From positions 23,848,412 to 23,912,411 of the forward strand of contig NC_092675.1 in the NCBI RefSeq assembly GCF_964355755.1: a stretch of 64,000 bases of DNA, given 5' to 3'. The position numbers and the translations under genes are program-made. Every line of letters starts with the position of its first letter. Position 1 is the first letter of the stretch. Below the pieces are notes generated by a model. The model was not told the origin of the DNA, ran no database searches, and worked only from the letters and a program-made list of their open reading frames with translations. The stretch is from Antedon mediterranea. Taxonomy: Eukaryota; Echinodermata; Crinoidea; Comatulida; Antedonidae. Shown here piece by piece: positions 12,201 through 64,000 of this stretch.

Positions 12201-15200
12201 ATTTGCATTAATGCAGTCATCAAAATTATATAAATATAATATTCCTTTACAAAATATATTTGTGTTGAATCTCTGTGATAACAATATGCAGATATACTGT
12301 ATATATGTATAAACGCAAACGCATTCTATGTGATCCTCGTATACAAAAAATGCTAGATTACCAAAAAATTATTAATTCCATTGCGATTAAAAATAAATTT
12401 AATTTTATAAAAAACTTCACTGTGCTTTGACAAGAATATGTGTTGTAATTAAATGCGGTCTTAATGTATTATATTAGATTATTATTTTTGAACACATTTA
12501 CGGCCGCCATCTTCTTGGTTCCCCCTCCTGTCTGTCGGCTTATTACACCTCTCAGTCTGGTAATTACTTGTACCTGTTTTAACTCTTTGCTATTTACAGG
12601 TGGAGATGGCAACAGATAAATCATGTACAGTGTTGTGTAAGATTACATTAGATGAGAAAGCTTCTAAGCTGCTAGCACAGCGCATTAAGGAGGATTACAA
12701 TGTACACTTGTTATCTGATAATTTACCAATAGCAACAAGAATTCCAGAAGATGAGTTAGGCATTAAATTCAGCTATGTTCATGGATACAAACTGGGGTTC
12801 ACGTTATTGAAGGAAAATGCAGAGGGCAAAAAGGAACCTGTGGTAATTTTCATTTATTGCTTATTATTTATTTATTTATTACACCTTATTTATAGAGGGT
12901 GCCCCTAAACAGCGTATGAGTGCCAGTGGCTGTGTGTATACTAGTACACCAGGGTAAGAACACCTACTCGTCTCGAAAGTTGTATTAGGTTATAGTACAC
13001 ACGAGCCAGAGGTGTACACTGGAGAAGACTTGGTCTATCACCAGAACCATGGAGCGAGTGACGCTCGAACCCTTGCCGATGTTAATATGGCAAGATATTA
13101 CGGTTCTACTGTATTAACTGCTTGGCCAATCACCGCTTAATAGTGTATCAAGCTACATGTATTGTATTACATACCCATACCTCTTACATTCTATCGATCC
13201 CTTAAATTTTACTTTATTTATAAGCAATTAGTGTTCATCTTTCTACTTGTGGTGAATATAATGGAACCAAATCTAACTTTTACATGGGCTGATGAAGGTT
13301 GAAAATTAATTTTTGATGTGTTTCCCTCCCCCTACCCTCTTTCCAATTTATTCCTATATAATTTATTTGTAATCCTCAGATGTACATCAACAATCATTTG
13401 CGTCTTAACATGAAGTACCATAAAGTTGATGAGTATGGGTAAGTTGCAATTATTTAATTGTTTTGAATATTCACATTTTGTTAGGAACCCTGTATTTATT
13501 CAAACGCGTAACATCAACATCATTAACATGGTCTAACATTTAATGGGTATGGCATATGTTAACATTTTTGTGGAAATCAATTAATTAGTTAATTGGTTTC
13601 TGGATAAGTATGATCAGAAATACAATTAGATTCTCAGTTTCATGTGAGACTACAGAATATAGAACCTCCTTTGGAACAGCCATACTGTATTTATGTCGGA
13701 GATATCTCTACTAAGGAGGCGCCACACCACGAGCAACCTCTATTCAAGACACACCTATGTAGTTGTTTTATGCTTACTATATTTAGTTTTTGTTAGATAA
13801 TTTGGTGTTTTTTTCTAACAGAGATGATTACAGGGTGGTTGGTTTTGAAGCAGTAGCTCAGAGTCGAAAGTATAAAGCTGATGGACTAGAGATTGTCGAT
13901 GATAAGACATGCTCAGTTGATAAGGCCAAACCACTTGTCTTTCAAGAAGTTGTAGCTGGAGGTATGCCTCAAATCTTAAGCTCTATCTACAGTATCAAAC
14001 TAGTTTGACTACTAGATATGGTAGTAATATGATGTCATCGTATCCATATATTGGCACATCACATTCTTTTGTCACGTAAAGTTTGATAGTGTAGATACAA
14101 CTTCAGAATTAGAAAAATGTCATAAATCGAAGAACTTTAAAAAGTTTATAAAGGAAAACATTTTCTGTTGTGTTTAAATAACTTATTATACTTTCCAACC
14201 TATAATTATTTTTTTTGTATTGTTTTTATTTATTTTATTGTCTTTTATGCTTGCAGAGAGTCAAGAAATTTATTACACATTTGAAGTGAACTGGGAACCA
14301 AGTGATGTTAGATGGGCTTCACGTTGGGATACATACCTTGCCATGAGCGATGTCCAGATTCACTGGTTCTCAATTATTAACTCGCTTGTTGTGGTCTTCT
14401 TTTTGGCAGGTAAATTATTCTAAATAAATAAATAAAGTACCGTATTAAAATGACATATAATGTACTTTATTTCCCTATGGAAACAATGGTGTACCGCAAA
14501 CCTAACTTTCCTAGTCTTTTGTTATTGTTTTCTTGCAAATTATTATTTTTGATATATATTTTTCAAATACTCGCATAAAAACTTAAAATTCTTTATCTTT
14601 TAGGAATTTTGACAATGATAATTATCCGAACTCTGAGAAGAGACATTGCTCGTTACAACAAAGATGAGGATATGGTGAGCATTACTTTTCTTTATTTCAT
14701 CTATTATCACACTTTGAGATTATAATCATGAAATACAGTTGATCGATTAATGATAACCTGAAAAAACTGCTACAAGGTGTATTTTTGTAATTTATTCTAA
14801 TTTATTTCTTTTTGTTGTATGTTTTTATTCTTTTAGATCATATATAATAATAATTTATAATATAATAATTATATATATAATATGTACTTTGTACTTGGTG
14901 TCTTAAGAATATTTGGTCTATTGTAATGTGCTTAATCACTACTAGTATTATATCATATCATTTTTTTTAAATTTAAATATAATAATAATATTACTTTTTA
15001 GAATAATTAAAGAAAAACATTGTAAATGTATACAGGCCCCCCGTCATGCATATATCATGGGTGTTGGAAGTACACACCTAATTAGTGAAATTTAGCGCAT
15101 TTTTTTAACAGCTAGTGACTATGATTTATCCTTACCTTCTTATTTATTTTGTTTTATGTATCATTTCTAAATGTATCTTATTTGCCAGAATAAATAACAT

Positions 15201-18200
15201 AGTGTATGTTTGTAATTGTTGTCATAATATTTGATTTATACAGGAAGATACCATGGAGGAAACTGGGTGGAAATTAGTCCATGGGGATGTGTTCCGTCCT
15301 CCTAAGCACAAGAAGCTTCTATCATCAATGGTTGGGGCTGGCATGCAAGTCTTTTTTATGGCACTGATCACAATAGGTGAATACATTTATTTTCTTATTT
15401 AATTTAGGTTTTAATAAGGAGTTATTTATATGCAATATAGGATGACCAAACTATGTTAATTCATTGTGCGCATGCGGAAATATTGCGATGTGTGCTATTG
15501 CTCTTCACCTCAACTTATGTTTGATGATTTCTTGGTTCCAGGTGACAACGGAAGACACAACGATTGACCTGACCTAGGTCGGTCGTTGATACTTGGTCAT
15601 CGAAAATCGAAAGCTCCCTCTTATAATTTCTGAATGCATCATTTGTTTTATACCAAAAATGAACGTTTTATGAGTGGTATGGATAAATGATATTTAAAGA
15701 GATGGAACCAAGTTAAAATAGACCAGTGTATCTTTTAACTCATATCCTTAAAATGCAAAACATTCACTATTTGTACACCTACTGTGACTGTTGAAGGCCA
15801 TGCCTTAAAATCCATGAAAAAAAAAAATTATAAAATTATAAATTTAGAAAAAAAAATGTGTCAACTAATACTTAGCACACGTACGTGTAATCAACCAATC
15901 ATAAGGCAAAGATACTCTTAATGTGGTTATAAAACAATACAAATTTTTATTTCAGTTACTGCCATGTTTGGTATGCTGTCACCAAGTAGCCGTGGATCTT
16001 TGCTCACTGCAAGTTTATTCCTTTTTGTTTTTATGGGGTAAGTTTCAGTTGCATGATTTCTGATAGCAATAAATTGTTGATATAAAGTTTGCAGTACACC
16101 ACGTATATTAGTTCTGAAAAGAACTGTTGAGTTCCTCGACGTTTCAATCAATATGCTTTGATCATCCTCAGGAGTGAGAATGCAATAAATTGGTAATAAT
16201 ATTGTTATTTCATACTTTAAAAACAATAATAAATTTATATTAAACCAGAAAAACAACTTTGTGCATGTATTTAAAATGTATACATTGCTAGTTTTATTTT
16301 GTTTTTTAGAAAAATTAATGAATTAAAATAGTTTTGTTTTTTTTGTATTATAATGTAATCTCTGAATTGTAAATTCTTTATATAATTGTAACTTGTTTAC
16401 ATTGATATTGTTTTTATATTTTATTTTGACACCGCAAATACTTTTAACCAGATGGTAACTTTTTACGTCATTTACATCGGCCTAAATTTTCGCTTCCCGG
16501 GTACGACTCTGGTTACACAATTACGGATCAACTCCTCATTTTTTATGCTGGTGTAAAAGGGGTAAAATTTTAATTTATAATAATATATTACAAATTCGTC
16601 TTGCTTTACTTATATTCATATCTTTTTATTGTAGTGTCTTTGCTGGTTACTTTGCTGGAAGACTTTATAAAACTATTAAAGGCACAACATGGAAGCGTGC
16701 CGCTTTCTTGGTAAGATATTTTATTCTTTTTTTTCTATCATAATTTTTTATTTTCAGTTTATTGTGTATTTGCACAAAAATGGTGATTGTGTAGGTGGAG
16801 ACCATGTATTACTAGACTAGAAAGACTAGAAAAAATGATAATCCCCTGACAACAATACATTATGAGGCATTGTATGTAGTACATACTAGCATGTCTGTCT
16901 GTGTTTTTTTAAGGATTTAAACTCATGTTTACTTTACATTCAAACTGATGTGTCACACACAACACAGATTGTAGACCAGTATTTCCAGAGACAACTTCAA
17001 TCCCCTCCAAATAGAAAAACAGTACAAAACATTGTATATACATATATCCTAGCATGTCTGTCAGTGTTCTATTAAGAACTTAAATTCATGTTTGTTTTCC
17101 ACAAGAGAAAACTACAATTCACTGACAACAGAATAACAGTACATCTATCATATCAGTGTTTATATTTAAGTTCTTTAAATGTTTTCTTCACTTCCAGACT
17201 GGCACAGTTTTTCCTGGTGTATCATTTGGAATAGCATTCATACTGAACTTCTTTATCTGGGGTAAACATTCATCAGGTGCTGTACCCTTCACCACAATGA
17301 TCGCGTTGTTATGCATGTGGTTTGGTATATCACTTCCACTTGTGTACCTTGGGTACTATTTTGGATTCAGGAAACAGGTAAAATGTAATATGTAAATGCC
17401 AAAATATGGTCGAATTGGAATCAAAAACCTTATATTGCCCTAGAGGGAAATATAACTGAAATATAAATTTTAAAGTAAATATTAAGATCTTGTATGTGTG
17501 CATTTTATTAGAGTAAGAGAATGGTAAAAGAATTGAACTATGTTAGAGACATGGGTTATTTTTTTGCTTGTATCCCTCTAATGATATAAAACTCAGGGGA
17601 TCATCTCCCAGTGTGCTAGAGGATCTCCCAGTGTGCTAGAGGATCTCCCAGTGTGCTGGCAGATGCTGCAGTGTGACCGCCGTGGGTATGTGGAGGCCCT
17701 TAACATAATTTCTTAATTAATGGAAGATATATTTTTGTATTCATGTTGTTTATTTTGTTACAGCCATATGAGCATCCTGTAAGAACTAACCAGATCCCAA
17801 GACAAGTACCTGAACAAGTCTGGTATCTTAACCCACTGCTAAGGTTAGTTATAATTTGGTTAATGCTAAATGTTATTGTGTAGTGTGTAAACAAATATTG
17901 AATGTACATAAATATATATATGTAAATATATATCACTTTTAAAGACTATTTTAATAGTGTAATAATATTATTATATGTGTAATTTATTTTTGTAGTACAT
18001 TGATGGCTGGTATCCTACCATTTGGAGCTGTATTTATTGAATTATTTTTTATCCTATCGGTAAGACTTGCTTATGTTGTTTTGTTTGTTGGCTATTTTAT
18101 TAACCTATATGCCATGCCATTCTCTAACTTACATCATTGTCAAATGATATGAAGATCTGATAATGTACAGTCTACTGTGGCTTGTGTATATTCCAAGAAC

Positions 18201-25162: not shown

Positions 25163-25309
25163 TAAGCTCCATCTACACTATCAAATTTTATGTGACAAAA
25201 AATGTGATGTGCCATCCATCATATGGACATGATGATGTCATATCACTACCATATTCAGGCGCAGCACATCACACTTTTTAGTTAAACTTGTTTGTAGACA
25301 GAGCTTTAA
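25163..25309. mobile_element. MITE, TCTACACTATCAAAC family
   Basis: The left end is 'taagctccatctacactatc' and the right end is 'ttgtagacagagcttta'; interior blocks are 'gtgccatccatcatatgg' and 'atatcactaccatattc'. It abuts the next palindromic element, so the TTTAAGC junction is shared. Confidence 0.8.
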
Positions 25310-25673
25310 GCTTGGTTCCCACTAGAACGTAACGCAAGGACGTAAACGCAACGCAAGCGTTTTAACCAATGACAAGCGAAGTTATAGGCAGTAAAGCGTG
25401 GTTCCCACTAGCGACGCAACACAAGGACGTAACGCAACGCAAGTGAATTGATCAATCACAAGCGATGGCTTATTCGCTTGTGATTGCTAACTGTCTATAA
25501 CTTCGCTTGTCATTGGTTAAAACGCTTGCGTTGCGTGTACGTCCTTGCGTTACGTTCTAGTGGGAACCAAGCTTTAGCAATCACAAGCGAATAAGCCATC
25601 GCTTGTGATTGGTCAATTCACTTGCGTTGTGTTACGTCCTTGTTTTGCGTCGCCAGTGGGAACCATACGCTTA
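25305..25673. mobile_element. Interlocked double palindrome (GGTTCCCACTAG MITEs)
   Basis: Four segments lie in the order A (25305-25394), B (25395-25487), A' (25488-25575), B' (25576-25673). A' is the near-exact reverse complement of A, and B' of B, including distinctive words (A: 'ttttaaccaatgacaagcg'; B: 'caatcacaagcgatggct'). Both A and B begin GGTTCCCACTAG; both A' and B' end with its complement. The arrangement is interleaved rather than nested, so it is not a simple insertion of one MITE into another. Confidence 0.85.

Positions 25674-28905: not shown

Positions 28906-64000
<35,095 letters not shown>

Follow-up and report, generated by a model that had tools for sequence, protein, structure and literature searches.

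A short insertion with a hammerhead-like motif in an EMP70/TM9SF intron of Antedon mediterranea: a probable pLTR copy of a Penelope-like element

The window analysed here, a stretch of 64,000 nucleotides from Antedon mediterranea, carries a 105-bp insertion flanked by exact 11-bp repeats in an intron of an EMP70/TM9SF gene. With a probability of about 0.93, we consider this insertion to be a tail-less, 5′-short pLTR copy of a Penelope-like element (PLE), placed antisense to the gene by the PLE mechanism proposed below. The source of the repeat to which it belongs is the pLTR (pseudo-LTR, the 3′ terminal part) of a PLE with a GIY-YIG endonuclease (EN). A suggestive tiny intronic hammerhead element turns out in this way as an ordinary Penelope pLTR insertion. 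A pLTR insertion with a minimal hammerhead fits the known PLE pattern, and the present one looks like a typical example of it, not a new kind of ribozyme element.

The insertion and its hammerhead-like motif

The insertion and its surroundings have the following features (positions are those of the window).

15124–15378, plus strand: EMP70 (TM9SF) exon match upstream of the insertion (PF02990; G000:C6:23863535-23863789)
16066–16076, no strand: target-site duplication, left copy (exact repeat; the final 2 bp possibly belong to the element)
16077–16181, minus strand: probable tail-less pLTR copy of a Penelope-like element, 105 bp (genome matches, copy count, EN linkage)
16077–16084, minus strand: tail-less 3′ end (TATATCAA, plus CA common to the duplication; 3′ end distribution and PLE biochemistry, PMC11167929)
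16182–16192, no strand: target-site duplication, right copy (exact repeat; the first 1–2 bp possibly belong to the element)
17189–17380, plus strand: EMP70 (TM9SF) exon match downstream of the insertion (PF02990; G000:C6:23865600-23865791)

The repeat GCAATAAATTG occurs at 16066–16076 and again at 16182–16192 with 105 bp between, exactly as the first-pass annotation of this DNA had it. Other copies of the element end in ..TATATCAACA and begin with (G)CATTCTC..; because up to 3–4 of the 11 bp may be the element's, the true target duplication was taken as 8–11 bp. A splice donor lies at 16038, and the insertion starts 28 nt beyond it (by eye). Because the insert and the EMP70/TM9SF gene lie on opposite strands, transcripts of the gene would contain only the complement of the insert. 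Exact 11-mers repeated 80–150 bp apart numbered 21 in the window, compared with 1–6 in 20 controls (first-order Markov; low-complexity 11-mers excluded). The observation is real, because the 11-bp repeats border a dispersed repeat at both ends.

On the minus strand, the insert holds a minimal type-I hammerhead-like motif, identified by direct reading, pattern and family comparison. Its parts, and a hairpin downstream of it, are as follows.

16135–16174, minus strand: whole motif, CTC / CTGAGGA / T / GATCAA-AGCATA-TTGATT / GAAAC / GTC^GAG
16174–16172, minus strand: box CTC (direct reading)
16171–16165, minus strand: box CTGAGGA (direct reading)
16163–16158, minus strand: box GATCAA (direct reading)
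16151–16146, minus strand: box TTGATT (direct reading)
16145–16141, minus strand: box GAAAC (direct reading)
16140–16138, minus strand: box GTC (direct reading)
16137–16135, minus strand: box GAG (direct reading)
16137–16138, minus strand: predicted cut GUC^G (by the rule UH^ for hammerheads)
16110–16125, minus strand: hairpin AGTTCT-TTTC-AGAACT (sequence)

Hammerheads cleave according to the rule UH^. The earlier reading of CTGAGGA, the stem-loop, GAAAC and GTC proved correct, and the cut it had predicted between 16138 and 16137 is consistent with the box coordinates. Its account of the stems held in part: the boxes and their pairing are present, while stem I consists of three contiguous pairs only (CUC/GAG) and stem II has a G-U pair beside the core, with an extra T (16164) between CUGANGA and the stem. 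Both the window copy and a better-kept copy (L007) have all core bases, three contiguous pairs in stem I and six of six pairs in stem II. The sole possible stem III in these two copies is the palindrome ACGU, in agreement with the self-complementary stem III of the annotation; such a stem requires two RNAs or two copies. For PLEs, minimal type I hammerheads that act as dimers were reportedly described by Cervera and de la Pena in 2014 and by Lunse et al. in 2017. The core CTGANGA..GAAACGTH was kept in 13 of the 28 motif-spanning copies in the sample of 88 described below.

The annotation had proposed a check with covariance models, and this check was negative: no match to the Rfam hammerheads was obtained in the window at the gathering score, nor in 15500–16800 or in a better-kept copy (L009) at E up to 10. 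The window motif is hence without the match to Rfam models that marks a canonical type I hammerhead; the window and L009 gave weak matches to non-hammerhead families only. A minimal PLE hammerhead would be compatible with this miss; passages of two reviews describe such hammerheads without helix III (PMC7761336, PMC6155905). The window motif appears to fit this minimal, dimer-type PLE hammerhead. Like its published counterparts, it has the full core, no helix III of its own, a palindromic ACGU for helix III of a dimer, and dispersed non-coding copies. It may differ from them in the additional base that separates A9 from stem II. Dispersed minimal hammerheads are already described, in passages of the same reviews, both in non-coding animal DNA and in PLE pLTRs (PMC7761336, PMC6155905).

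In the predicted single-strand fold, CUGANGA is buried in a hairpin (TTCTCA/TGAGGA). A hammerhead formed by a dimer would have 22 pairs, every one of them standard, but the dimers of predicted minimum energy are other folds. For the hammerhead of an Anolis PLE, cleavage was obtained only when the PLE protein was present (PMC11167929). Any ribozyme activity of the window copy is therefore putative.

A loose hammerhead motif has two occurrences in the window where 0.38 would be expected, and 6 of 100 shuffles reached two. The second CTGAGGA..GAAAC string lies at 41686–41715 on the minus strand; two such strings are about chance level. The hairpin downstream of the motif recurs in L009 (1555–1601), where it resembles the histone 3′ stem-loop RF00032 at 18.0 bits, below the threshold of 34 (E 0.012 for a 181-base search).

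The dispersed repeat and its source element

A 127-bp query was run against the genome to which the window belongs (354 Mb, 18 contigs). There were 50 matches including the window (best 40 of 1583 candidates): the query itself, 39 matches with 91–97% identity over most of its length, and 10 pieces that were either shorter or neighbouring. When up to 3 mismatches were tolerated, a 23-base anchor immediately downstream of the motif had 1,540 matches (784 + 756), compared with 3 for the control. Counted in the same way, the 23-mer that starts from CATTCTC (CATTCTCACTCC..) gave 576 matches and the next 23 bases upstream 158, while the tail gave 877 and the stretch preceding the tail 1,435. Where well-kept copies have CGATCAA..TTGATCG, the window copy has TGATCAA..TTGATTG; changes such as these look like CpG decay.

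For the anatomy of the copies, we used 80 loci on contigs C1 and C2 at which the anchor matched exactly; these held 87 copies. With the window copy these made 88, of which 8 were dropped because their 3′ flanks were shared with another copy, leaving 80 to be counted. The loci came from the first 100 of the 1,540 anchor places listed, excluding five places on C3 and those matched earlier by the 127-bp query (two without a fetched locus); older copies with altered anchors are under-sampled in this set. In eight loci (L040, L053, L064, L070, L077, L100, L103 and L115), the same pLTR piece lies within the same larger flanking sequence, so that one insertion appears to be carried inside another dispersed repeat.

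The source element was recognized from its endonuclease. A fragment in one locus of the repeat (L010) matches GIY-YIG (PF01541) with 28.1 bits at a cut-off of 22.6, and its frame has an inverted copy of the repeat on one side and a partial direct copy on the other, in the order inverted pLTR, EN, UTR and part of a pLTR. An 83-residue piece of this EN matched the genome at no fewer than 15 places with E ≤ 2e-14 (best 150 of 421 candidates). Two of these, L010 and L022, were first found through the repeat; 12 of the other 13 were fetched, and had been picked by EN alone. Eight of the 12 (L117–L120, L124 and L126–L128) carry UTR and pLTR on the same strand, 303–451 bp past the EN match, as do L010 and L022 after their EN. 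The annotation was right to place the insert among Penelope-like and hammerhead-bearing elements. Within the fetched stretches of the remaining four (L121, L122, L123 and L125), no UTR and pLTR were found downstream; in L121, the 23-mer that immediately precedes the pLTR has a match on the same strand, some 3.3 kb farther on.

Two of the EN loci match an 857-aa PLE of the same genome from RT into EN, L118 with 29.6% identity (E 7.6e-24) and L120 with 30.1% (E 4e-26). For the PLE family of the window repeat, no complete ORF with both pLTRs was found; the EN copies seen are short, interrupted or 5′-truncated.

Ends of the copies and the proposed mechanism

The 3′ ends of the 80 copies fall mainly at two points 32 nt apart. 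Tail-less copies (..TATATCAACA) numbered 28, and another 28 were tailed, ending at or just after ..CTTCAAACAATA; 7 ended between the two points and 17 were shorter. The window copy was counted by the program with these 7, its called end lying 7 nt inside the duplication; inspection by eye shows it to be tail-less, with TATATCAACA as its end. The 5′ ends are scattered. Relative to the anchor, 6 lay beyond −52, 18 at −52 to −46, 22 at −45 to −30, 11 at −29 to −15 and 23 at −14 to 0, and 18 of the 80 copies had their 5′ end near that of the window copy, close to CATTCTC. A fixed unit of 105 bp was rejected on account of this scatter.

An inverted neighbour was present upstream in 43 of the 80 copies (13-mer test). 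By BLAST, 39 of the 80 loci contained opposite-strand pairs, 51 of them head-to-head and 2 tail-to-tail. Same-strand repeats were limited to three loci (L049, L063 and L081), where they are partial and adjoin inverted copies; this BLAST count supersedes one made with exact anchors, which had given 1 of 80.

Of 37 simple copies, 7 had direct repeats of at least 10 bp near both ends (6 of 36 when the window copy is left out), compared with 5 of 1332 swapped-flank controls. For composites the figures were 15 of 43 and 40 of 1806, some of the 43 being two or three copies from one locus. These counts come from a wider search with swapped-flank controls, which replaced a strict search near the called boundaries that had missed clear cases (L039). 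Some copies carry target duplications of 8–13 bp, well above control, and the annotation's view of an integration with target duplication, as opposed to a leftover of decay, is sustained. Once low-complexity repeats were set aside, 27 of the 37 simple copies had no end repeat of 8 bp or more; decay and the calling of boundaries may hide some of them. The window insertion, with its duplication of 8–11 bp, fits the pattern of the copies.

In the mechanism that we propose, a pLTR-bearing PLE RNA would be bound by the PLE protein, whose GIY-YIG endonuclease would cut the target DNA. Reverse transcription would begin within the RNA, in this case at the first of two sites separated by 32 nt, and would end at or before the 5′ end of the RNA, in the window copy at CATTCTCACTCC. 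Repair of the staggered break would then produce the 8–11-bp duplication, with the hammerhead carried along as part of the pLTR, and the target site before insertion would have held a single GCAATAAAT(TG). In longer copies, CATTCTC lies 27 nt past a TATATT box. From the TATA-like box and the drop in 23-mer counts, the CATTCTCACTCC point is probably near the transcript start, and the window copy would accordingly span the stretch from the transcript 5′ end to the first internal start site of reverse transcription. By analogy with the Anolis PLE, positions 16077–16084 would be that first start site in the insert, and reverse-transcription start sites are presumed for the PLE family of the window repeat as a whole.

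The ends of the copies recall known systems. In the Anolis PLE PAc, a tail of 30–40 bp is the stretch between two internal start sites of reverse transcription in the RNA (PMC11167929), and in the account of Adineta vaga, as far as its relevant passages go, Penelope copies have an optional 31-bp tail and target duplications of 8–10 bp (PMC3846280). PAc and the A. vaga families share with the present repeat the optional tail of 30–40 bp and the two 3′ ends (PMC11167929 and passages of PMC3846280). PAc also has a pLTR with a hammerhead, as here (PMC11167929). Short duplications, head-to-head inverted pLTRs and 5′ truncation are likewise found in these PLEs with GIY-YIG EN (PMC11167929; PMC3846280, in part). 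In contrast to them, the window copy consists of the pLTR only, the EN copies of its family are few and broken, and there are about 100 pLTR matches per EN place listed. The genome thereby offers a test case for whether two start sites of reverse transcription account for the ends of genomic copies.

Other PLE families and the excess of pLTR copies

Other PLE families of the genome carry hammerhead-like motifs near their ORFs. In the 870-aa family, the motif has CTGAAGA, stem I GCAA/TTGC and stem II GTC/GAC; in the 857-aa family, TTGAGAA, stem II GATCTC/GAGATC and one pair only in stem I; in the 477-aa family, TTGAAAA, stem I GATC/GATC and stem II GGT/ACC. Four families were compared by eye, too few for a statistic: stem I has 3, 1, 4 and 4 contiguous pairs, and stem II is paired throughout. 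All four have the extra base between A9 and stem II (aligned by eye, small sample). Core positions 3 and 8 hold C-G or U-A, the latter in two of the four (by eye, small sample); U3/A8, a natural change of two bases at once, replaces C3-G8 in L031:336-2906 (G000:C2:9542700-9547200) and in L134 (G000:C5:16830600-16833300). Mutagenesis of the Anolis PLE showed that the 3–8 pair matters (PMC11167929). Sister families that differ in their hammerhead stems within one genome, two of them with U3-A8 for C3-G8, make a direct test of activity possible.

Six loci (L129–L134) were examined for the hammerheads of other families. L129/L130 and L134 were usable, L132 belongs to the L031 family, the hammerhead of L131 is degenerate, and none was seen by eye in the inspected stretch of L133. 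L134 and L133 match RT and GIY-YIG, the GIY-YIG of L133 below the cut-off, while L129 matches RT by Pfam and EN only by 42% similarity to the EN of L010.

PLEs with 857-aa open frames (RT + GIY-YIG) and three pLTRs were noted at G000:C2:9542700-9547200 and G000:C4:19285900-19290400. The frame matches RVT_1 at the cut-off and GIY-YIG one bit below it, and is flanked by three pLTRs of its own; a complete pLTR-ORF-pLTR copy is thus present in a PLE family (L031) other than that of the window repeat. The open frames suggest recent activity. The 857-aa PLE was rejected as the source of the window repeat, since the only recurring match at its three pLTRs was an 18-base hammerhead stretch.

The window repeat has 1,540 pLTR anchor matches to at least 15 clear EN places (EN: best 150 of 421 candidates), a ratio of about 100:1. 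For the 857-aa family, there were 213 pLTR matches (control 13) to at least about 50 EN places, and for the 870-aa family 111 (control 0) to at least about 37, the EN places being in both cases among the best 150 of 421. Their ratios are about 3–4:1 at most among the matches listed; EN was counted by eye in these two families, so the EN numbers are lower bounds, and several pLTRs per insertion are possible. Tentatively, and at somewhat less than even odds, we propose that the stretch from the transcript start to the internal start of reverse transcription (about 105 nt, or about 137 nt with the tail) could be a self-sufficient template, giving pLTR-only copies by default. Monomeric transcripts would begin in the pLTR, with the start of reverse transcription only about 105 or 137 nt away; pLTR-only copies would have grown to about 1,500 in this manner, compared with about 15 EN copies, and would have spread hammerhead motifs as a SINE-like by-product. 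If true, this would account for the minimal hammerheads dispersed in animal genomes, and the genome is a test case for why these can so greatly outnumber PLE coding copies. A limited literature search by title returned nothing on pLTR-only copies, and the by-product model is not put forward here as new to the literature.

The same excess might point to a SINE-like lineage apart from the PLE: a short element made of the pLTR only, which would have a master copy of its own and be mobilised in trans by the PLE protein. The ratio of about 100:1, compared with 3–4:1 at most in the 857-aa and 870-aa families (EN among the matches listed), agrees with it, as does the start of 18 of the 80 copies near CATTCTC, but age and decay of the long copies could raise the pLTR:EN ratio as well. 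When 22 UTR-linked matches were compared with 128 unlinked ones, allele frequencies differed by less than 30% in every pLTR column, and this test hence gave no sign of a separate master. The median divergence was 5.0% for unlinked and 2.9% for linked matches, the linked set being biased to good matches. We regard a lineage of this kind as rather unlikely.

The first-pass annotation had favoured a discrete tiny hammerhead element. In its retrozyme form, a small circular RNA would have been cleaved by its own hammerhead into single units, then reverse-transcribed and integrated as a 105-bp monomer. The intact core of the window copy, its small size and its target duplication would suit such an origin, and type I hammerheads are present in animal retrozymes, according to passages of PMC7229834; metazoan non-LTR retrozymes are, in the same passages, likewise small, non-coding, hammerhead-bearing and dispersed. 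However, the predicted cleavage site does not coincide with the ends of the element, the 5′ ends are scattered, the 3′ ends lie mostly at two fixed sites, and the repeat is linked to EN. Animal retrozymes are tandem repeats of 150–450 bp in the part of PMC7229834 concerned, whereas tandem units were not found here, same-strand repeats being confined to 3 of 80 loci, partial and next to inverted copies. The insert is a single linear pLTR copy, in contrast to retrozymes, which form tandem repeats of about 300 bp and whose type I hammerhead is canonical (PMC7229834, in part). A circular-RNA origin of the insert is unlikely, in our estimate very much so, and the claim of a discrete element gives way to that of a PLE 3′ terminal part. 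Even less credence is due to a chance hammerhead-like string between chance 11-bp repeats. Motif alone and repeats alone are each near chance in this AT-rich window, and there was no Rfam match, but the insert belongs to about 1,500 related copies, and other copies carry the same motif (core kept in 13 of 28 spanning) and repeats at their ends; the dispersed copies and their end repeats refute a reading by chance.

Elsewhere in the window, at 25308–25665, there is a foldback of two interleaved inverted repeats, with arms of 85 and 92 nt that are 98% and 96% complementary, and with internal direct repeats. It looks like a nested or duplicated foldback transposon.
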